Shown here: positions 6,732 to 46,744 of the stretch, piece by piece
How the letters are laid out: each line of letters begins with the position of its first letter
Position numbering within the stretch: the stretch's first letter is position 1
Origin: Candidatus Gastranaerophilales bacterium
Lineage (GTDB): Bacteria > Cyanobacteriota > Vampirovibrionia > Gastranaerophilales > Gastranaerophilaceae
Length of the DNA: 56,930 nucleotides
Reading direction: 5' to 3'
Assembly: GCA_944322895.1 (NCBI GenBank)
Contig: CALUQL010000004.1
Span: forward strand, 1-56,930
Position numbers and translations under genes: made by a program
The notes under the pieces: model-generated
Database searches by the model: none
The model's input: only the letters and a program-made list of their open reading frames with translations
Told to the model about the DNA's origin: nothing

Positions 6732-7793
6732 TTAGTGCTCAAACTTAATTTCTTTTAGCCCGAATCCATTCAAATCAATTTGAACATTAGTAGAATCAAT
6801 AGAAATCAATTCTGATTTTTCTTCATTATAGTCTATACTCCAAGTTCCAAGAAAAAGTGGTTTATCTTTAGTAAAAGCATAGGCATATACAATTAATCTG
6901 TCAGGATTATTTTTATCCCAACCAATTGGGAAAATATCCCATAAATAATCTTTTAATTCAATCTGTTTATTTTGACGCCACCAATATATTATAGCTTCTC
7001 TTACAGCAGTTAATCTTTTCCAAGATTTTGATTTAAAATCATAAATAATAACATTAGTCTGCCAAGTTTCATATAAATTAGAACCTATTTTTTCTTTAAA
7101 GGCAATCTTTGTACTATCTTTAGACCAATCTATCGGGAAAAGTGTTTTAAATTGATATTCTTGTAAATAATCCATTCCAACAGTAACAATAGGTTTTACA
7201 TCACCTTGCATAACATTTGTTTTAAATAAAGCTTCATATGCATCATTAATATTTTCTTTAACGGGAATATAATAAGCCGATGATGCTGTTTGAGAATATT
7301 TTGGATAAAAGAAACATTTAGTATACACCATTTTTTTATTATCTGGAGACAATATCCCTGGGGACGCAATTGTCCTTTGAGCAACAAGTTTTGTTAAGTC
7401 AATATTTCTTTGACCGGGAGGTGAATTATAACTCACAACTCTATAATGAGGATCAGGTAAAATAATTTCACTATTTTGTTCAAAAGATGGTTCAGGTATT
7501 ATAAAATCTTTTCTCTTTTTTTCAGCTGATAGCTTATAATAATCGTCCATTGTAATAGGCATATTAGATTTATCAATATTATGATAATAAGTCTTCTTTG
7601 ATGGTGGTAAATGAAGTTTTTCTCTAACCTTTTCTTGCAAAGTTCTAGGGTCATATTCCTTTTCAGGTTCTTCAACTTTAGATGAATCTAATACTTCAGA
7701 ATTTAAATATAAAGGATCAGGAATAACCTTTTCAGCTTTTACAAAAGAAGATGCCAGTATTAAACAAAATAATAAAATTAAATAATTTCTCAT
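6732..7793 (-). CDS. Secreted protein, possible TolB/propeller-like repeats
   Basis: The 353-residue protein has a clear Sec signal peptide (hydrophobic residues about 4-19, cleavage likely after SFVKA). The mature part begins with Pro-rich low-complexity sequence. It then carries elements such as SPDNKKMVYT and WSKDSTKIAF, which recall the repeated S-x-D-G/S-x-x-I-A-F/Y strands of TolB-type beta-propellers. The ATG overlaps the stop of the NarL-type regulator gene (TAATG), so it is the third gene of the two-component operon and may be the sensor's envelope partner or an output. The family is not identified. Confidence 0.5.
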   Translation of the reverse strand: MRNYLILLFCLILASSFVKAEKVIPDPLYLNSEVLDSSKVEEPEKEYDPRTLQEKVREKLHLPPSKKTYYHNIDKSNMPITMDDYYKLSAEKKRKDFIIPEPSFEQNSEIILPDPHYRVVSYNSPPGQRNIDLTKLVAQRTIASPGILSPDNKKMVYTKCFFYPKYSQTASSAYYIPVKENINDAYEALFKTNVMQGDVKPIVTVGMDYLQEYQFKTLFPIDWSKDSTKIAFKEKIGSNLYETWQTNVIIYDFKSKSWKRLTAVREAIIYWWRQNKQIELKDYLWDIFPIGWDKNNPDRLIVYAYAFTKDKPLFLGTWSIDYNEEKSELISIDSTNVQIDLNGFGLKEIKFEH

Positions 7794-8467
7794 TAAACAA
7801 GACCTTCTTTAACAGCTTGAATTGTCGCTTGAGTTCTATTTGTAACATATAACTTTTGCAAAATACTATGAACATGCGCTTTCGCTGTAGAAAGAGTAAT
7901 AACAAGTCTTTTCGCAATTTGAGAGTTATTTAGCCCTTCAACAATTAAAGCTAACACTTCAATTTCTCTGTCTGTAAGTCCATAAACATTCTTTGCATTT
8001 TTATTTACTGATGAGATATTGTTATCAACAGATGTCGAAGTTTGCCTTTTTACACTTGATAAAACCAACCTTGCAATAGCAGGGTCTAACCAAGCCGTAC
8101 CTTCTGCTATAGCTTTGATAGCAGAAATCATTTGTTCTTCATTAGCACCCTTCATAATATAACCATCAGCTCCGGCAGATAAAGAATCAAATACATCATC
8201 TTCTGATTCTCTTGAAGTAAATATCAAAACTTTTATATTAGGATTAGACTTCTTAATTAAAGAAGTGGCTTGAATACCATCCATTTCCGGAAGCCCTATA
8301 TCCATAAGAACAACATCTGGATTCAGCTTCAAAGCAAGTTCCACTCCTTTTTTCCCATTTTCAGCCTCCCCTATTAAATTAATGTCCTTCGAATTTTCAA
8401 AGACTAGAGAAAGCCCAAGCCTTACCATAGTATGATCTTCTACAAGTAAAACCTTTATACCGTCCAT
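7793..8467 (-). CDS. NarL/FixJ-family response regulator
   Basis: The 224 residues fit a receiver followed by a LuxR-type DNA-binding domain. The receiver has the acidic pair E10/D11, the phosphoacceptor D56 in VVLMDIGLP, and the switch and lysine regions (TSRES, IMKGA). Residues about 160-215 form the LuxR/NarL helix-turn-helix (GLTDREIEVL through AKAHVHSIL). The start overlaps the end of the histidine kinase gene by 13 bases, so the pair is almost certainly cognate. It is a transcription regulator; its targets are unknown, but the downstream secreted protein is a candidate. Confidence 0.9.
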   Translation of the reverse strand: MDGIKVLLVEDHTMVRLGLSLVFENSKDINLIGEAENGKKGVELALKLNPDVVLMDIGLPEMDGIQATSLIKKSNPNIKVLIFTSRESEDDVFDSLSAGADGYIMKGANEEQMISAIKAIAEGTAWLDPAIARLVLSSVKRQTSTSVDNNISSVNKNAKNVYGLTDREIEVLALIVEGLNNSQIAKRLVITLSTAKAHVHSILQKLYVTNRTQATIQAVKEGLV

Positions 8468-9999
8468 AATTTATCCTCATTTTTTAACATAACGGAATCA
8501 AGAAGAACAAAGAAAAATTCACTACCTTTGCCTTTATCACTTTCAAGCCAAATTTTACCGCCATGTGCATCTATAATTTGTTTAGACAAATAAAGTCCCA
8601 AACCGGTACTGATAGAACGTTTTTCCTGAGTCCCTTGTGAAAAACGTTTGAATAACTTAGGAATATCCTTCTTGTAAATACCTTCTCCGTTATCTTTTAC
8701 AGAGAAATGCAAGTCATTTGACTCAATTTCTGCTTTTACTTCAATGTATCCGCCATCTTGAGTATATTTAACAGCATTACCTAGTAAATTTATAATAACT
8801 CTTCTTATTTCATTTCTATCAGCCAAGACTTCTGCATAATCTAAATTTTTATATACTTTCTCAATTTTTTGATGTTTTGAATCAGCAATTGGTAAAACTT
8901 GTTCAATACATTCATCAAGAAGTAAGGAAAAATCAAAAGGTGTTTTAACTAATTTTAAACGACCGGCTTCGTACTTATAAACTTCTAATAATGTATTAAC
9001 TAAGCCAAGCATGTCTTCATGACTTTTTTTCATTGTTTTTAGGAGCATTTGCTGTTTTTCATTCAACTCCCCAAGTTTCCCGTTCAAGAAATATTCTAAG
9101 GTTTGTATTGAAGCTACAGAAGGCGTTCTAAGATCATGAGTCAAAGTTGCAATAAAATCTTCTCTAAGTCTGTCCATTTCTTTTTGAAAATGAACATTTC
9201 TTATCACAAACACATATTTTTCTTGTTCATTCTCTGATTTAGCAGGTATATAGGCACAACTAATCTCAACAGGAATTTTATTACCATTAACAACATTTAT
9301 AACATTAATTTCTCTGAGCAAATTTTCATCTTTACTCGAGAATACTTTATTCCAATCAATTTCTTTTGCTTCAAAAAGATCTTTTACATTTTTTGTTTTT
9401 AAAATTTCTTCAGACAAACCAAATAACAACTCACAGGCAGGATTTACATCCAAAACAAATCCATTAGAGGAAAGAAGTATTATTCCATCAGCACAATTAT
9501 TAATTATTGCAGACAATCTTTCATTCATTTCGATAATGTCAGCTGTTTTTTCTTTTACAAGTTCCTCTAAATTTTGAGAATATTTTGTCAATTGATTATT
9601 TGTTTCTTCCAATTTTTCTATCAAATGAGCTCTTTCATAGGCATTTTTTATATTTATAATAAGTTCATCATTATCCCAAGGTTTTTCAATATATTTATAA
9701 AGACCAACCTCATTTATAGCTCTAATAGCATTTTCTTTATCTGCATAACCTGTAAGTAAAATCATACTTGCATTTGGATACATTGCTTTTGCTTTTGAAA
9801 GAAACTCTAGTCCATTCATTTGAGGCATCATAAAATCAGAAATTATTACATCTCTAGAGTTTTTTTCTAAATATTTAAGCGCCTCAATAGGATCATTAAA
9901 AAAAGCAGCATCACAAAATCCTTCTAACATAAATAAAGATTTTAATGAAGAAGTAACAAGTTTATCATCATCAAGAACTAGTATTTTATATTTTTGCAT
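8455..9999 (-). CDS. Soluble hybrid sensor kinase: REC-PAS-HisKA-HATPase
   Basis: The 514 residues have an N-terminal receiver (D11/D12, phosphoacceptor D55 in IISDFMMP), a coiled linker (about 125-160), a PAS domain (about 160-270), HisKA with H288 in LTHDLRTP, and a HATPase domain with the N box around N408 (LLGNAVKYTQ), G1 DNGEG (436-440) and G2 TGLGLYL (465-471). There is no transmembrane helix, so it senses from the cytoplasm. Having the receiver at the N terminus suggests it is itself an acceptor in a phosphorelay, feeding into the NarL-type regulator encoded next. The operon order is kinase, regulator, secreted protein. Confidence 0.88.
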   Translation of the reverse strand: MQKYKILVLDDDKLVTSSLKSLFMLEGFCDAAFFNDPIEALKYLEKNSRDVIISDFMMPQMNGLEFLSKAKAMYPNASMILLTGYADKENAIRAINEVGLYKYIEKPWDNDELIINIKNAYERAHLIEKLEETNNQLTKYSQNLEELVKEKTADIIEMNERLSAIINNCADGIILLSSNGFVLDVNPACELLFGLSEEILKTKNVKDLFEAKEIDWNKVFSSKDENLLREINVINVVNGNKIPVEISCAYIPAKSENEQEKYVFVIRNVHFQKEMDRLREDFIATLTHDLRTPSVASIQTLEYFLNGKLGELNEKQQMLLKTMKKSHEDMLGLVNTLLEVYKYEAGRLKLVKTPFDFSLLLDECIEQVLPIADSKHQKIEKVYKNLDYAEVLADRNEIRRVIINLLGNAVKYTQDGGYIEVKAEIESNDLHFSVKDNGEGIYKKDIPKLFKRFSQGTQEKRSISTGLGLYLSKQIIDAHGGKIWLESDKGKGSEFFFVLLDSVMLKNEDKLWTV

Positions 10000-40154: not shown

Positions 40155-41396
40155 ATGAAAAGACGAGCATTCATAATAAATTCTGCATTAACGCTAGGTG
40201 GAACTATACTATTATCAGGATGTGGAAAAAATGAAATAAAAAAATCCAAAGATCAAGTAGTAAGAAGAAAGTTTGCTAACACAGATACTCCATTAATAGC
40301 ACTAGGCTGTATGAGACTTCCTATGCTCAATGGAAAGATAGATATGGCTGAACTTGATAAAATGGTAGAGTATGCTATGTCTCATGGTGCAAATTACTTT
40401 GATACAGCATATATGTATGTTGATGGAAAGTCAGAGAATGCAATTGGTGAAGTATTAAAAAAATATCCCAGAGAAAGTTTTATATTAGCAGATAAATGCC
40501 CTGCATATCTCGTCAAAACTCAAACAGATACAAGAAGACTATGTGAAGAACAGCTCAAAAAATGTCAAGTTAAATATTTTGACAATTATATGGTTCACAA
40601 TATTAATAAAAACACTATAAACAATTATCGTGATAATAAAATGTACGATGAACTTGTCAAACTAAAAAAAGATGGTTTGGTAAAACATATAGGTTTTTCT
40701 TTCCATGGCGACCCTCAAATGCTAAGGGAAGTTATAAATGAACACAAATGGGATTTTTGCCAATTACAAATCAACTATCTTGATTGGGAAGTTGTTAATG
40801 CAGATGAATTATACGATATAGCAGATAAAGCAGGTGTTCCTATCATAGTTATGGAGCCTTTAAGAGGCGGAGTTCTATGCAATCTTCCAACGAAAGCTGC
40901 TGAGAAATTAAAACAAGAATGTCCTAATGATACACAAGCTTCATTTGGTTTAAGATGGGTCGCAAATAAGAAAAGAGTATTCACAATCTTAAGCGGAATG
41001 AGCAATTTACAACAACTTAAAGAAAATGTTAATACATTTGTGAATTACAAAGCAATAACAGAAAAAGAAGAACGAGTAGCATATGAAATTGCACAGATTA
41101 TACAATCAGGGGGAGCAATAAGTTGCACGGCGTGCAAATACTGTTTAGAAGTTTGTCCTAGAGGAATAAATATACCGGCAATATTTGGTTTATACAATAT
41201 GTATAAAGGAAGTAAAGCTCCAAACGCAAAATTTATGTTTGTATATAATTATAATGCCCTTGAAGAATCAACAAGGGCAGACAAGTGTATAAAATGCGGT
41301 TTGTGCAATAAAAACTGCCCGCAAAGCCTTGATATTCCCAAACTTTTAGAAAAAGTAGACAAAACAGTAAAAGAAGTTGAAAAGAGTATGAACTAA
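40155..41396 (+). CDS. Tat-signal lipoprotein: aldo/keto reductase fused to ferredoxin domains
   Basis: The 413-residue protein opens MKRRAFIINSALTLGG, a twin-arginine signal, and ends the signal at LLSGCG, a lipobox, so it should be exported folded and lipid-anchored. Residues about 40-300 form an aldo/keto reductase barrel with the tetrad visible in NYFDTAYMY, LADKC and MVHNI. The C terminus has two 4Fe-4S motifs, CTACKYCLEVCP and CIKCGLCNKNCP. It probably reduces a carbonyl outside the inner membrane with electrons from the polyferredoxin encoded next (1-base overlap). The substrate is unknown. It heads an operon containing tatA and tatC. Confidence 0.82.
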   Translation: MKRRAFIINSALTLGGTILLSGCGKNEIKKSKDQVVRRKFANTDTPLIALGCMRLPMLNGKIDMAELDKMVEYAMSHGANYFDTAYMYVDGKSENAIGEVLKKYPRESFILADKCPAYLVKTQTDTRRLCEEQLKKCQVKYFDNYMVHNINKNTINNYRDNKMYDELVKLKKDGLVKHIGFSFHGDPQMLREVINEHKWDFCQLQINYLDWEVVNADELYDIADKAGVPIIVMEPLRGGVLCNLPTKAAEKLKQECPNDTQASFGLRWVANKKRVFTILSGMSNLQQLKENVNTFVNYKAITEKEERVAYEIAQIIQSGGAISCTACKYCLEVCPRGINIPAIFGLYNMYKGSKAPNAKFMFVYNYNALEESTRADKCIKCGLCNKNCPQSLDIPKLLEKVDKTVKEVEKSMN

Positions 41397-42673
41397 TGAA
41401 AAATGTATATAAAACAAGATTAATAATAGGTATTATTGTTTTATTACTGGCTATTTTAGGCATATATGGAGTTTTTTATTCTGCAAAAATATTTGATATC
41501 CAGATTTTACCATTATTGCAAAGATGCATTATTGATTTTTCAATTCTTGCATTATCATTACTTACAGGAATTATAATATTAACTGTTTTATTCGGACGTA
41601 TATACTGCTCTCTACTCTGCCCATTGGGAATTATTCAAGAACTGGCAGGTATGTTCTTTTTTAGAGGAAAAAGAAAAAATAAATATACAAAAAATTATCC
41701 AATAAAATATTTTATATTAGCGATTTCATTAGGCATTTTATTGGGGGGAAGTGCATTATTTATAAGATACATAGAACCATATACTTATTTTAGTTCAGCT
41801 TTTACTTTTTCAATGGTAGGCCTCATTGCATTATTAGCAATAATCTTTCTTACATTTTTCAAAAACAGTTTTTTTTGTACAAATATTTGTCCGGCAGGAA
41901 CTATACTCGGACTTATATCAAATTTTTCAAGAAATAAAATCTATATAGAGAAACATAATTGTGTTTCCTGTAGCAACTGCGAGAGCAAATGCCCAGCTGG
42001 CTGTATCGATTCAAAAAATAAAACAGTTAATAATGAAACCTGTATAAAATGTTTAAAATGTATTGAAATATGTCCCAAAGGTGGTATCAAATACGTAAAA
42101 GAACCAAAAGAACAAATAAATTTTAGTATACAAAGACGAAAAATAATAATAAGTACAGCGCTCATAGCCGTTTTTGGAACAATGATTAAAACAGGAATAA
42201 TAATAAAAGATAAAATTGCAGAAAAATACAGAGACATAATTTTACCCCCAGGAGCAGAAAGCGAAGAAAGATTAATAAATACATGTTATAATTGCAATCT
42301 TTGTGTTGAAAATTGCCCTGCCCAAATTATAGTAAAAGCAAATAATGATTTCCCTACAATTCACATTGATTATAAAAACGGAAGTTGTGATAAAAACTGT
42401 AATAAGTGTTCACAAGTATGTCCGACCGGTGCTATAAAAAGGCTCAGTATAGAAGAAAAACAAAAAACAAGAATAGCAATGGCAATGATAAAAAAAGAAA
42501 GTTGTACTGAATGTGGATTATGTCAAACATCATGCCCATATGGGGCAATAATTATAACCAAAGAAGGAACAAACATTAATGCAGAAAAATGTATAGGCTG
42601 CGGAGCTTGTAAAAAAGCATGTAACACTGATGCAATAGAAATTTATGCCGTAAAAAAACAAAATATAATATAG
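41396..42673 (+). CDS. Membrane polyferredoxin (NapH-like) with internal twin-arginine segment
   Basis: The 425-residue protein has four N-terminal transmembrane helices with NapH-style CxxxCP pairs (C71/C75 and C161/C165), then two 4Fe-4S motifs (CVSCSNCESKCP, CIKCLKCIEICP). Next comes IQRRKIIISTALI (R247/R248) leading into a fifth helix. Beyond it are four more cysteine motifs of 4Fe-4S type (CYNCNLCVENCP, CDKNCNKCSQVCP, CTECGLCQTSCP, CIGCGACKKAC). The layout reads as a NapH-like part fused to a NapG/NrfC-like part whose folded Fe-S domain would cross by Tat. It likely passes electrons from the cytoplasmic side to the exported reductase. Confidence 0.82.
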   Translation: MKNVYKTRLIIGIIVLLLAILGIYGVFYSAKIFDIQILPLLQRCIIDFSILALSLLTGIIILTVLFGRIYCSLLCPLGIIQELAGMFFFRGKRKNKYTKNYPIKYFILAISLGILLGGSALFIRYIEPYTYFSSAFTFSMVGLIALLAIIFLTFFKNSFFCTNICPAGTILGLISNFSRNKIYIEKHNCVSCSNCESKCPAGCIDSKNKTVNNETCIKCLKCIEICPKGGIKYVKEPKEQINFSIQRRKIIISTALIAVFGTMIKTGIIIKDKIAEKYRDIILPPGAESEERLINTCYNCNLCVENCPAQIIVKANNDFPTIHIDYKNGSCDKNCNKCSQVCPTGAIKRLSIEEKQKTRIAMAMIKKESCTECGLCQTSCPYGAIIITKEGTNINAEKCIGCGACKKACNTDAIEIYAVKKQNII

Positions 42674-42692: not shown

Positions 42693-42908
42693 ATGTCACT
42701 GGGAATAACAGAAATAATATTAATTTTAGTTGTTATAATTTTACTTTTCGGAGGAAAGAGGATTCCGGAAATAGCTAGAGCACTTGGCAGGGCGTCATAT
42801 GAATATAAAAAAGCAAAAGACGTTATAAAAAAAGAAACAGAAGAACTTAAAAATGAAATAGAAGACGCACAAGAAAAACCGGAAGAATATAAACCGCAAG
42901 ACGTATAA
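42693..42908 (+). CDS. tatA: Twin-arginine translocase subunit TatA
   Basis: The 71-residue protein has one short N-terminal transmembrane helix (ITEIILILVVIILLFGG), the FG-x-K-x-[IL]-P hinge (FGGKRIPE), an amphipathic helix and an acidic tail. This is the complete TatA/TatE pattern. TatA oligomers form the transport path for folded, cofactor-containing proteins. AAAGGAG precedes the ATG. It is immediately followed by tatC, and no tatB is present, so this is a minimal TatAC system next to its likely substrates. Confidence 0.95.
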   Translation: MSLGITEIILILVVIILLFGGKRIPEIARALGRASYEYKKAKDVIKKETEELKNEIEDAQEKPEEYKPQDV

Positions 42909-42909
42909 A

Positions 42910-43644
42910 ATGAGCGATATGGAAGATAAAGACGAAAATATAATTTCTCATATTGAAGCATTCAGAGAAATGTTGTTAAAAAGTTTTATTTGTTTGGGAA
43001 TATTTATAATTCCGATGCTTTTTATTGCGCCTAAATGCTTAGATTTACTGATACAATTACTAATTAAGGATAATAATATATCTCTTAATTATTTTTCGCC
43101 TGTAGAAGTATTCATAATACAAATAAAACTGGCATTTATTCTTGATATAATACTTTGTTTTCCATATATAGCAAGACAAATATGGAAATTTTTTGCTCCG
43201 GCACTTTATCAACACGAAAGAAAATTTATAAAATCAATAGTATTCATATCAACAACTTTATTTATATTCGGCGTATTTTTTTGTTTGTTCATTATTTTAC
43301 CGCTTATTATAGATTTTGGGATGAGTTTTACATCTCAGAAGATAAACGCAGTATTAGGAATTTCAAATATAATTAACTTATCGTTCTGGCTTACATTATC
43401 CTTCGGGTTAATGTTTCAAATGCCAATCATAACATATTCTCTAATAAAATCAGGATTTGTAGAATACAAAACATTTGAAAATATGAGACCTTATGTTGTT
43501 GTAATAATACTCATTATAGCAGGAATACTAACACCGCCTGATATTATAAGCCAAATATTACTATTTACACCTACATATATGCTATTTGAGGCAGGATTAT
43601 TATTTTCAAAATTAAGAATTAAGAAAGACCCCAATAATGGATAA
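42910..43644 (+). CDS. tatC: Twin-arginine translocase subunit TatC
   Basis: The 244-residue protein has six hydrophobic segments. The N terminus ISHIEAFREML corresponds to the signal-recognition stretch of TatC, and the family's FxPxE-like region reads FSPVEVFIIQIK. LTPPDIISQILL near the end is also typical. TatC binds the twin-arginine signal in the inner membrane. It starts 1 base after tatA and overlaps larB by 8 bases, binding the export genes and the nickel-cofactor genes into one transcript. Confidence 0.95.
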   Translation: MSDMEDKDENIISHIEAFREMLLKSFICLGIFIIPMLFIAPKCLDLLIQLLIKDNNISLNYFSPVEVFIIQIKLAFILDIILCFPYIARQIWKFFAPALYQHERKFIKSIVFISTTLFIFGVFFCLFIILPLIIDFGMSFTSQKINAVLGISNIINLSFWLTLSFGLMFQMPIITYSLIKSGFVEYKTFENMRPYVVVIILIIAGILTPPDIISQILLFTPTYMLFEAGLLFSKLRIKKDPNNG

Positions 43645-44317
43645 ATATATAGAACTTGATTTTGCAAAACTTGATACAGATAGAGTAAAAAGACGAGGTT
43701 ACTCAGAAGCTGTTTTTTGTGAATGTAAAAATGATGAGCAACTAATAAAAATATTCCAATCATTCAAAGATATTGGTTCCAATGTAATAGGAACACGTTG
43801 TTCCAAGAATCAATATGAAATACTAAAAAATAAATTTGGAGAAATTATCAAATACAATGAACAAGGAAGAGTTGTAACACTAATACAAAAAGAAATCGAA
43901 AGAATTGGAGAAATTGCCATTTGTACAGGAGGAACTGGTGATATACCCGTGGCAGAAGAAGCTGCAGAAACAGCTGAATTTTACGGAAGCAATGTAAAAA
44001 AATATTATGATATAGGTATTGCAGGCATACACAGACTTTTTGATAAAATTGATGAAATAAAAAAAGCAAATGCAATAATAGTAGCAGCCGGAATGGAAGG
44101 TGCATTAGGAGGAATCATTGCAGGACTTGTAGATATACCTGTTATAGCACTACCGACTTCTGTAGGTTATGGAAGCAGTTTTAAAGGACTTTCAGCACTT
44201 CTTACAATGTTAAACTCTTGTGCAGAAGGAATGAGTGTTGTAAATATTGATAATGGCTATAATGCGGGATATAGCGCCTGTCAAATAAACAGATTAATTG
44301 AAAGGAAAAATAAATGA
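43637..44317 (+). CDS. larB: LarB: pyridinium-3,5-biscarboxylate mononucleotide synthase
   Basis: The 226-residue protein has the PurE-like fold signatures of LarB: AICTGGTGDIPVAEEA, IVAAGMEGALGGIIAGL and ALPTSVGYGSSFKG. LarB carboxylates and hydrolyses nicotinic acid adenine dinucleotide in the first step of nickel-pincer nucleotide (NPN) synthesis, the cofactor of lactate racemase LarA. It overlaps tatC (8 bases) and larC (4 bases). The N-terminal part before the PurE-like core (about 1-85) is of normal length. Confidence 0.93.
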   Translation: MDKYIELDFAKLDTDRVKRRGYSEAVFCECKNDEQLIKIFQSFKDIGSNVIGTRCSKNQYEILKNKFGEIIKYNEQGRVVTLIQKEIERIGEIAICTGGTGDIPVAEEAAETAEFYGSNVKKYYDIGIAGIHRLFDKIDEIKKANAIIVAAGMEGALGGIIAGLVDIPVIALPTSVGYGSSFKGLSALLTMLNSCAEGMSVVNIDNGYNAGYSACQINRLIERKNK

Positions 44318-45057
44318 ATTTATATTTTGAATGTAATTCGGGTATTTCGGGTGATATGTCTGTTGGTGCATTATTAGACTTGATAGATAACGAAAATATT
44401 TTAGATAATGCTCTTTCATCAATGAAACTTGATAATGAATTCCAATACAAAATTACAAAGAAAATGGTAAATGCAATCTCAACTACAGATTTCGATGTTA
44501 TTTTACCTTTACACAATCATCACGAGCACCACCATGAACATCACCACGAGCACAGAAATCTGGATGATGTAAATAAAATTATTGACAAAGCAAATATTAA
44601 TCAAAATGCAAAAACTTTAGCTAAAAAAATCTTTAGAATAGTAGCAGAAGCCGAAAGTAAAGTTCATAATAAAGATCTTTCAGAAGTTCATTTTCATGAA
44701 GTTGGTGCAATTGATTCAATTGTGGATATTGTAAGTTTTGCAGTTTTATATGATTATCTGAACCCGAATAAAACATATTTTTCAACACTAACAGAAGGAC
44801 AAGGAACCATTACATGCCAGCACGGCGCACTATCAGTACCGGTTCCGGCAGTTTGTGAAATAGTTTCAAAGTATAAAATTCCAATTAAAATAACAAATAA
44901 TGAAGGAGAAATGATAACCCCAACAGGTGCGGCAATTGTTGCAGCATTATATACAGGTGAACAACTCCCTGCGAAAATCATTATAGAAAAAGTAGGATAT
45001 GGAAGAGGTAAAAGACCCTATAAAAATCCTATTTTAAGAGTTATGGAAATAAACTAA
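44314..45057 (+). CDS. larC: LarC N-terminal half (nickel-pincer nickel insertase, LarC1-like)
   Basis: The 247-residue protein starts NLYFECNSGISGDM, the LarC hallmark. It has a His-rich insert (H67-H80, HNHHEHHHEHHHEH type) suited to nickel storage, then VHFHEVGAIDSIVD and ITPTGAAIVAAL. LarC installs nickel in the NPN cofactor in a CTP-dependent reaction. Full LarC is about 400 residues, or LarC1 plus LarC2 joined by frameshift. Here the frame stops after VMEIN, and the transporter gene begins 10 bases later with its own ribosome binding site, so the LarC2 half is missing from this locus. Confidence 0.88.
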   Translation: MNLYFECNSGISGDMSVGALLDLIDNENILDNALSSMKLDNEFQYKITKKMVNAISTTDFDVILPLHNHHEHHHEHHHEHRNLDDVNKIIDKANINQNAKTLAKKIFRIVAEAESKVHNKDLSEVHFHEVGAIDSIVDIVSFAVLYDYLNPNKTYFSTLTEGQGTITCQHGALSVPVPAVCEIVSKYKIPIKITNNEGEMITPTGAAIVAALYTGEQLPAKIIIEKVGYGRGKRPYKNPILRVMEIN

Positions 45058-45067
45058 AGGAGATATT

Positions 45068-45970
45068 ATGCATTTAGGAAATGGAATAATTTGCCCGGCA
45101 ACAGGAATTCCTATGATAATGTTAGCAGGAATAACAGCTTATTATGCTTTTAAAAAAGCTAAAACTGATTTTAACAAAGAGAAAATCTTATATACAATAA
45201 CTTTAACTATTTTAGTATTTACTCTGCAAATGATAAATTTTTCAATACCGCACACAGGTTCAAGCGGGCACATAATAGGAGCAATGTTACTTGCCGTATT
45301 AATTGGTCCTTATGCGGGATTTCTTGCAATGTGTAGTATTCTACTTGTTCAAGGAATATTCTTTGCAGACGGAAGCCTTTTAGCACTTGGCTGTAACATA
45401 ATAAATATGGGTGCTTTTGCTAGTTTCGCAGCATATCCTTTAATTTATAAACCATTTTCAAAAAACAATAAAGAATTTATAGGAGCAATACTATCTTCGA
45501 TTTTGGCATTACAACTAGGAGCATTGGCTGTCGTAATAGAAGGATTATTATCAGGAACAATAGCATTAAATTCAATAGCAAACTTCACAGGTTTAATGCA
45601 AATAATCCATCTTCCTATTGGTATAATAGAAGGTATTATAACAGGAATAGTAATTCTTGCAGTAAAGAAAACCAATTACAAAAAAGCATCTATTTCCTTT
45701 AGTTTGTTATCTTTATTATTTGCTTCTTTTATATTTAAATTTGCTTCTACAAAACCTGATGGACTTGAATGGTCATTATTAAAAATAGAAGATTCAATTA
45801 TTCCACAAATTCAAAGTCAAATATTCATAATATCTGAAACATTACAAAATAAAACAGCAATTTTGACCAATATAGAACCTGTATATTCAAATTTATCAGG
45901 CATCTTAATACTTGGTTTTATAATGTATTTACTATGTTTCTTTATGAATAAACAAAAAGCTGAAAATTAA
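45068..45970 (+). CDS. CbiM-type nickel/cobalt ECF transporter component with PDGLE domain
   Basis: The 300-residue membrane protein starts Met-His (MHLGNGIICP), the metal-binding N terminus of CbiM/NikM/LarM. It has GSSGHIIGAMLLAVLIGP and FADGSLLALGCN, typical of CbiM. A C-terminal part carries KPDGLEW, the PDGLE motif of CbiN/NikN-like subunits, then one more helix, so M and N functions are fused. In this operon the metal is most likely nickel for LarC. The ECF ATPase and the T subunit are not encoded in the window. AAAGGAG precedes the ATG. Confidence 0.9.
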   Translation: MHLGNGIICPATGIPMIMLAGITAYYAFKKAKTDFNKEKILYTITLTILVFTLQMINFSIPHTGSSGHIIGAMLLAVLIGPYAGFLAMCSILLVQGIFFADGSLLALGCNIINMGAFASFAAYPLIYKPFSKNNKEFIGAILSSILALQLGALAVVIEGLLSGTIALNSIANFTGLMQIIHLPIGIIEGIITGIVILAVKKTNYKKASISFSLLSLLFASFIFKFASTKPDGLEWSLLKIEDSIIPQIQSQIFIISETLQNKTAILTNIEPVYSNLSGILILGFIMYLLCFFMNKQKAEN

Positions 45971-46744
45971 ATGAAAGAAAAATTTGATAAATTAAAACAA
46001 TATTTAAGAGAACTGGATAAGCAAGGCCTATGTCTTGCTTTTTCAGGCGGAATAGACAGCTGTGCACTTTTATATTTATGTAAAGATTTAAATGTTATAG
46101 CCGTTACATTTAAATCAATTTTTCAAACAGAACAAGAAATTAATGAAGCAAAAGAATTTTGCAATTTTTATGGAATAAAACAAAAAATAATAGAATATTA
46201 TCCGCTTGAAAATAACCTAATAAAAAATAACCCAAAAGATAGATGCTACCATTGTAAAAAACTTATTTTTTCAGAGTTAAAAAAATATGCGGGAAATAAA
46301 ATTATAATAGACGGAACTAATGCAGATGATATAAAAACATATAGACCAGGACTTAAAGCATTGAAAGAATTAGAAATTTATTCCCCATTTGCTGATTTTG
46401 GAATTACAAAAAAAGAAATCATAGATTTTTCAAAAGAAGAAAGTATAAAGAACTATGCGAAACCGTCTTCACCTTGTATGGCAACACGGTTTCCATATAA
46501 CACTTTATTGAATGAAGAACTAATAGAAAAAGCAAAAAAAGGTGAAGAAATAATAAAAAATTTCGGTTTTTCAAACTGCAGATTTAGAATCCACGATAAT
46601 ATAGCCAGAATTGAAATTAATCAAGAAGAAATTGAAAAATTCATAAGATATAGAAAAGATTTTTTGAATAAATTAAAAGCTCTGGATATAAAATATATAA
46701 CCTTAGATTTAGAATGTCTACGCAGCGGAAGTATGGATATATAA
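45971..46744 (+). CDS. larE: LarE: ATP-dependent sulfur-transfer enzyme for NPN synthesis
   Basis: The 257-residue protein is a PP-loop ATPase (SGGIDS, residues 25-30) with DRCYHCKK (C92/C95) and SSPCMATRFPY. C169 in the last motif matches the position of the sacrificial cysteine of Lactobacillus plantarum LarE. It thiolates the pyridinium dicarboxylate before nickel insertion. It begins directly after the transporter stop and ends the operon that started with the Tat-signal aldo/keto reductase. No larA (lactate racemase) is seen in the window. Confidence 0.93.
   Translation: MKEKFDKLKQYLRELDKQGLCLAFSGGIDSCALLYLCKDLNVIAVTFKSIFQTEQEINEAKEFCNFYGIKQKIIEYYPLENNLIKNNPKDRCYHCKKLIFSELKKYAGNKIIIDGTNADDIKTYRPGLKALKELEIYSPFADFGITKKEIIDFSKEESIKNYAKPSSPCMATRFPYNTLLNEELIEKAKKGEEIIKNFGFSNCRFRIHDNIARIEINQEEIEKFIRYRKDFLNKLKALDIKYITLDLECLRSGSMDI

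Follow-up and report, generated by a model that had tools for sequence, protein, structure and literature searches.

A NapH-NapG fusion with an internal twin arginine, encoded beside tatA and tatC in Gastranaerophilales and probably assembled by Sec and Tat together

The locus and the fused polyferredoxin

The window, a stretch of 56,930 nucleotides from a Candidatus Gastranaerophilales bacterium, carries an operon in which an aldo-keto reductase (AKR) gene is followed by a polyferredoxin gene, tatA, tatC and a set of lar genes (Table 1). An earlier note on this DNA had named tatA and tatC as the next two genes after the polyferredoxin, and Pfam and NCBIfam models agree.

Table 1. Features of the operon, in positions of the window
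Feature	Position	Strand	Basis or remark
Aldo-keto reductase, Tat lipoprotein signal (MKRRAFIINSALTLGGTILLSGC), two C-terminal [4Fe-4S] motifs	40155..41396	+	
NapH-NapG fusion polyferredoxin, 425 aa	41396..42673	+	ORF; Pfam/NCBIfam; hhalign to E. coli NapH, NapG
NapH-like half, residues 1-240: four TM helices, two CxxxCP, two cytoplasmic [4Fe-4S] motifs	41396..42115	+	
Cytoplasmic-side [4Fe-4S] motifs C189-C199, C216-C226	41960..42073	+	Invariant Cys
Twin arginine R247-R248	42134..42139	+	84/84 distinct homologues; aligned with NapG Tat motif
TM5, residues 250-268, weakly hydrophobic	42143..42199	+	Least hydrophobic helix in 83/86 homologues
Positively charged segment after TM5 (KDKIAEKYR)	42206..42232	+	
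LPPGA motif, common to NapG	42242..42256	+	hhalign alignment
NapG-like domain, four [4Fe-4S] motifs (C297-C409), predicted extracytoplasmic	42284..42622	+	
tatA	42693..42908	+	PF02416, TIGR01411
tatC	42910..43644	+	PF00902, TIGR00945
larB, larC (N-terminal part only), cbiM-like transporter, larE	43637..46744	+	Linked in most Gastranaerophilales cassettes

The earlier note described the polyferredoxin as four helices and two cytoplasmic-side clusters, followed by a twin arginine, a fifth helix and four more clusters. The ORF, its motifs and its hydrophobicity bear this out. The hydrophobic minima fall at residues 9-27, 48-66, 105-123, 136-154 and 250-268, with sums of -4.3, -3.1, -1.0, -2.9 and +1.9 in that order on the Hessa 2005 scale and not from the dgpred server. 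The codons of R247 and R248 lie within the segment marked by the earlier note (42125-42180). Before the pair stand the cluster motifs C189/192/195/199 and C216/219/222/226; after it come C297/300/303/307, C331/335/338/342, C370/373/376/380 and C399/402/405/409, and none of these cysteines varies across 22 aligned homologues. The cytoplasmic side bears two further motifs, of the CxxxCP type (C71/C75 and C161/C165), which are likewise found in NapH.

We derived the topology from the hydrophobicity minima together with the loop charges. Lysine and arginine abound in the first Cys domain, in loop 2 and at the N terminus; loops 1 and 3 hold few of them. The protein is predicted to begin inside, cross the membrane four times, keep its first Fe-S domain in the cytoplasm and place its C-terminal domain outside after the fifth helix. 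The refuting outcome named in the earlier note, C-terminal clusters in the cytoplasm, did not appear: the charge distribution predicts the segment after TM4 to be cytoplasmic and the domain after TM5 to lie outside. The number of helices is even before the pair and exactly one after it. The AlphaFold model, with a pLDDT of 68.8 and a pTM of 0.45, is too weak to add much, and Foldseek gave only short ferredoxin-type matches.

Profile alignment with hhalign matches E. coli NapH to residues 45-232 (E 2.9e-16) and E. coli NapG to residues 244-420 (E 3.7e-20). The second alignment sets R247-R248 on the Tat motif of NapG and LPPGA on its LRPPGA. Judged by these profiles the ORF is a natural NapH-NapG fusion in one frame, and the homology to NapGH predicts that it oxidizes quinol and passes the electrons to a periplasmic acceptor. 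The same genome encodes a stand-alone NapH-like paralogue of 235 residues (contig C11) that ends just short of the RR position. This paralogue, having no RR, is a natural control.

Conservation of the twin arginine and assembly of the fusion

Our conservation set holds 90 full-length sequences, 84 of them distinct, from Gastranaerophilales and gut Alphaproteobacteria, at 38-95% identity to the query. The earlier note had asked for an alignment of homologues to see if the pair is strictly kept, and it is: RR stands there in all 84 distinct homologues, while the neighbouring positions vary. Not one of the 168 residues at the pair is lysine, in proteins whose basic residues are 73% Lys and 27% Arg (2.7 to 1). 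This conservation is more than chance. TM5 is the helix of lowest hydrophobicity in 83 of 86 proteins, with a median of five K/R at its C-terminal end. In a midpoint-rooted tree the fusions of Gastranaerophilales split into a Lar-linked and a Lar-free group, and those of Alphaproteobacteria make up a third.

Some fusion genes are irregular. Three loci from two genomes (G190 and G179) have an in-frame TAA in the Lys-rich TM2-TM3 loop (L069 near 4658, L010 near 6271, L104 near 4490), and this could be early decay, a sequence error or a tolerated break. The fusion of another genome (L062, G097) carries peptides of the type PHPNPPQxGMEQ inserted at various positions, and these resemble a mobile palindromic repeat within coding sequence. 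In L056 (G141) the fusion is two overlapping ORFs, broken near residue 188 in the NapH-like part.

Since the middle of the fusion carries a perfectly conserved RR signal, the last part of this membrane protein is probably handed from Sec to Tat. Sec would insert the four NapH helices. The first Fe-S domain would stay in the cytoplasm together with the RR segment, and there the NapG-like domain would fold and load its four [4Fe-4S] clusters. TM5 would be unfit for Sec, being too weakly hydrophobic and followed by too much positive charge, and R247-R248 would direct it to the Tat translocase of the neighbouring genes. Tat would then move the folded NapG-like domain outward, with TM5 remaining as its anchor. 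Quinol would give its electrons to the NapH part, which would relay them to the outer clusters and presumably on to the Tat-exported AKR lipoprotein encoded upstream; we infer the direction of this flow, the redox partner and the substrate. The tatAC pair of the order would be retained mainly for the fusion and the AKR. We consider it very likely that the fused quinol dehydrogenase is assembled by such a handover and that tatAC is kept mainly for these two proteins.

It could be argued that the RR pair is nothing but a positive-inside topology signal, so that Sec inserts TM5, the C-terminal domain is threaded through unfolded and the clusters are loaded outside. The pair does lie on the cytoplasmic side of the helix, where positive charge is expected. 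To our knowledge no extracytoplasmic cluster assembly is known for such ferredoxin domains. A topology signal should also tolerate lysine, yet lysine never occurs at the pair despite being the commoner basic residue of these proteins, and the pair falls on the Tat motif of NapG. In a related fusion, changing RR to KK abolishes export (PMC5449189). We regard the topology-signal explanation as highly improbable. Just as hard to credit is the proposal that TM5 is no real transmembrane helix and that all six clusters are cytoplasmic, as in soluble polyferredoxins, with tatAC serving the AKR only. It can draw on the weak hydrophobicity of TM5 (+1.9 against -4.3 for TM1) and on the fact that the PDB sequence matches are soluble ferredoxins. 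However, low hydrophobicity of the last helix is what marks dual Sec/Tat proteins as a class (PMC5449189), and the proposal leaves the invariance of RR without an explanation. The stand-alone NapH paralogue lacks the extension and lacks the RR motif as well, and the fusion vanishes from genomes along with tatC.

In our view dual Sec/Tat assembly explains this protein best; we infer the handover, which others have shown in a relative. The late Tat-dependent step that the earlier note thought plausible is supported by the invariant RR, by a topology that fits and by the published Tat dependence of a related fusion (PMC5449189).

The tatAC cassette, its substrates and the lar genes

Dozens of loci, among them nearly all those of Gastranaerophilales, preserve the gene order AKR, fusion, tatA, tatC; in the Alphaproteobacteria an AKR match was found in the fetched flanks of one locus only (L033). 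We scored the fusion as present where both halves were found. Across 192 genomes of the order, mostly metagenome-assembled and counted raw, without kinship correction, TatC and the fusion occur together in 64, TatC only in 5, the fusion only in 1 and neither in 122. Most of these exceptions are remnants. Three of the TatC-only genomes (G004, G006, G011) have a divergent TatC of other families, G076 (L053) has a truncated tatA adjoining a broken AKR, and G100 (L054) has a tatC fragment at a contig edge. The fusion-only genome (G069, L048) has an intact fusion but lacks tatAC, and its AKR is split. In the genome of L036, where the fusion breaks off near residue 241 and runs into a larE remnant, TatC has no match. 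A TatC is present in each of the 16 alphaproteobacterial genomes that encode the fusion.

After the fusion, the AKR is probably the second substrate of Tat, and it probably also serves the fusion as redox partner. All 61 AKR sequences that retain the N terminus carry the RRxF[IL] signal. The lipobox Cys occurs in 61 sequences out of the 62 having a residue at that position, and the catalytic tetrad in 65 of 65. In 64 genomes the AKR spans the greater part of the model; 63 of these genomes also have TatC, and a few have an AKR with internal stops or a missing N terminus. Twelve genomes have an AKR match and no TatC over the cut-off, and 11 of them show only AKR fragments or a broken frame. The sole TatC-free genome with a near-full-length AKR is G168 (L153), where the fusion, tatAC, larB and larC are deleted.

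Tat may have further clients, because this genome encodes at least one other RR-type N terminus, MKRRDFICGLSCLLAGFCLGNF of a radical SAM protein (L150 1501-2466, G000:C1:45959). A DNA pattern for M-[K/N]-R-R-x-F found the AKR and one radical SAM protein only in this genome, although it misses longer n-regions. The TIGR01409 Tat-signal model gave zero matches in the genome; it misses even the AKR signal, so it is unusable for counting Tat substrates. Flanking the alphaproteobacterial cassette of L033 are a DUF362 protein and one of the metallo-beta-lactamase fold (193-1197, 7640-8593), both with RR N termini.

Operon deletion alone could explain part of the co-occurrence of TatC and the fusion, since it takes out adjacent genes at one stroke whether or not they depend on each other. 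One might go further and hold that the link is mere neighbourhood, with Tat serving other substrates and the cassette being deleted as a block. The losses are indeed often internal deletions that take several genes together (L036, L049, L050, L051, L124, L131). The further RR N terminus in our own genome points the same way. Against this, Tat is absent from 123 of the 192 genomes, most of them more than 90% complete, and only three divergent TatC proteins lie outside the cassette. A near-full-length AKR without TatC exists in G168 alone. Deletion alone does not account for the broken AKR in 11 of 12 genomes, since this gene lies outside several of the deleted stretches. We find the neighbourhood account unlikely, though it deserves more weight than the two alternatives concerning TM5. 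Tat in Gastranaerophilales seems to be a dispensable cassette, inherited and lost together with the fusion and the AKR.

The lar genes accompany most of these cassettes. LarB is over the cut-off in 54 of 192 genomes: it is found in 48 of the 49 that combine TatC with a near-full-length Lar-linked AKR, and in none of the 14 with the Lar-free type. Lar genes are retained in some genomes after loss of the fusion and tatAC (L124, L131). LarA (PF09861) is over the cut-off in none of the 192 genomes of the order, our own included. The LarC of our genome matches 233 of the 375 positions of PF01969, its C-terminal part missing, which leaves the completeness of the nickel-pincer pathway in doubt; the alphaproteobacterial LarC (L033) spans nearly all of that model. 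The presence of larB, larC and larE without LarA raises the question of other users of the nickel-pincer cofactor (NPN) or a relative of it. In one scenario the cassette is a redox module outside the cytoplasm, complete in itself, in which a private Tat exports an NPN-dependent AKR lipoprotein and the NapH-NapG conduit that powers it, with larB, larC and larE supplying the cofactor in these LarA-free genomes. We think this improbable. A search of the AKR for an NPN-binding signature found no metal-ligand-like residue separating the Lar-linked from the Lar-free type, and both share the catalytic tetrad. The link between NPN and the AKR is therefore a guess from context.

DUF362 belongs to the same Pfam clan as LarA (PMC11770544). 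We rejected it as the NPN user: it occurs in only 28 of 192 genomes, our own not among them, and is absent from 37 of the 54 with LarB. At five loci of other families of the order (L125-L129; G002, G004, G009, G011) larB and larE adjoin a gene with a queA-like start, and neither a larC match nor the cassette was found there.

With its large and clean conservation set, this work widens the probable range of dual Sec/Tat assembly to Gastranaerophilales and Alphaproteobacteria of the gut. It also describes a two-gene translocase, TatA and TatC, naturally packaged with its likely substrates, and such packaging makes the minimal requirements of a Sec-to-Tat handover testable in one transplantable operon. 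We found no earlier description of the cassette in Gastranaerophilales in the open-licence literature. The kind of protein was already known; the novelty lies in this member, in its clean conservation set and in a Tat translocase linked to its substrates in the order.

Comparison with known Sec/Tat systems

The actinobacterial Rieske proteins, such as Sco2149, are polytopic proteins with a late Tat-dependent last helix and an Fe-S domain outside. They have fewer TM helices than the fusion and a single Rieske domain, and we know of no homology between the two. E. coli NapG and NapH, the quinol dehydrogenase of the periplasmic nitrate reductase, are homologous to both halves of the fusion. They are two separate proteins serving the Nap system, whereas here a single chain stands beside an aldo-keto reductase.

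The closest architecture is already published, so the proposed assembly is less novel than the earlier note supposed (PMC5449189). Tooke et al. 2017 described polytopic polyferredoxins with RR before TM5, and named Q1NSB0 of the delta-proteobacterium MLMS-1 as a NapH-NapG fusion (PMC5449189). With that fusion MBP and AmiA reporters were exported Tat-dependently, export being lost on the RR to KK change, and the handover is governed by low TM5 hydrophobicity and positive charge behind TM5 (PMC5449189). The testable sequence features of this class are all present in the protein encoded at 41396-42673. By its published description Q1NSB0, like our protein, is a NapH-NapG fusion with five TM helices, RR just before a weak TM5, positive charge behind it and four clusters after it. 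Q1NSB0 is longer, its TM5 being predicted at 338-359 while here the RR is at 247, and three cytoplasmic clusters are reported for it where we count two canonical ones. Unlike Q1NSB0, the fusion described here shares its operon with a Tat-lipoprotein AKR and tatAC.
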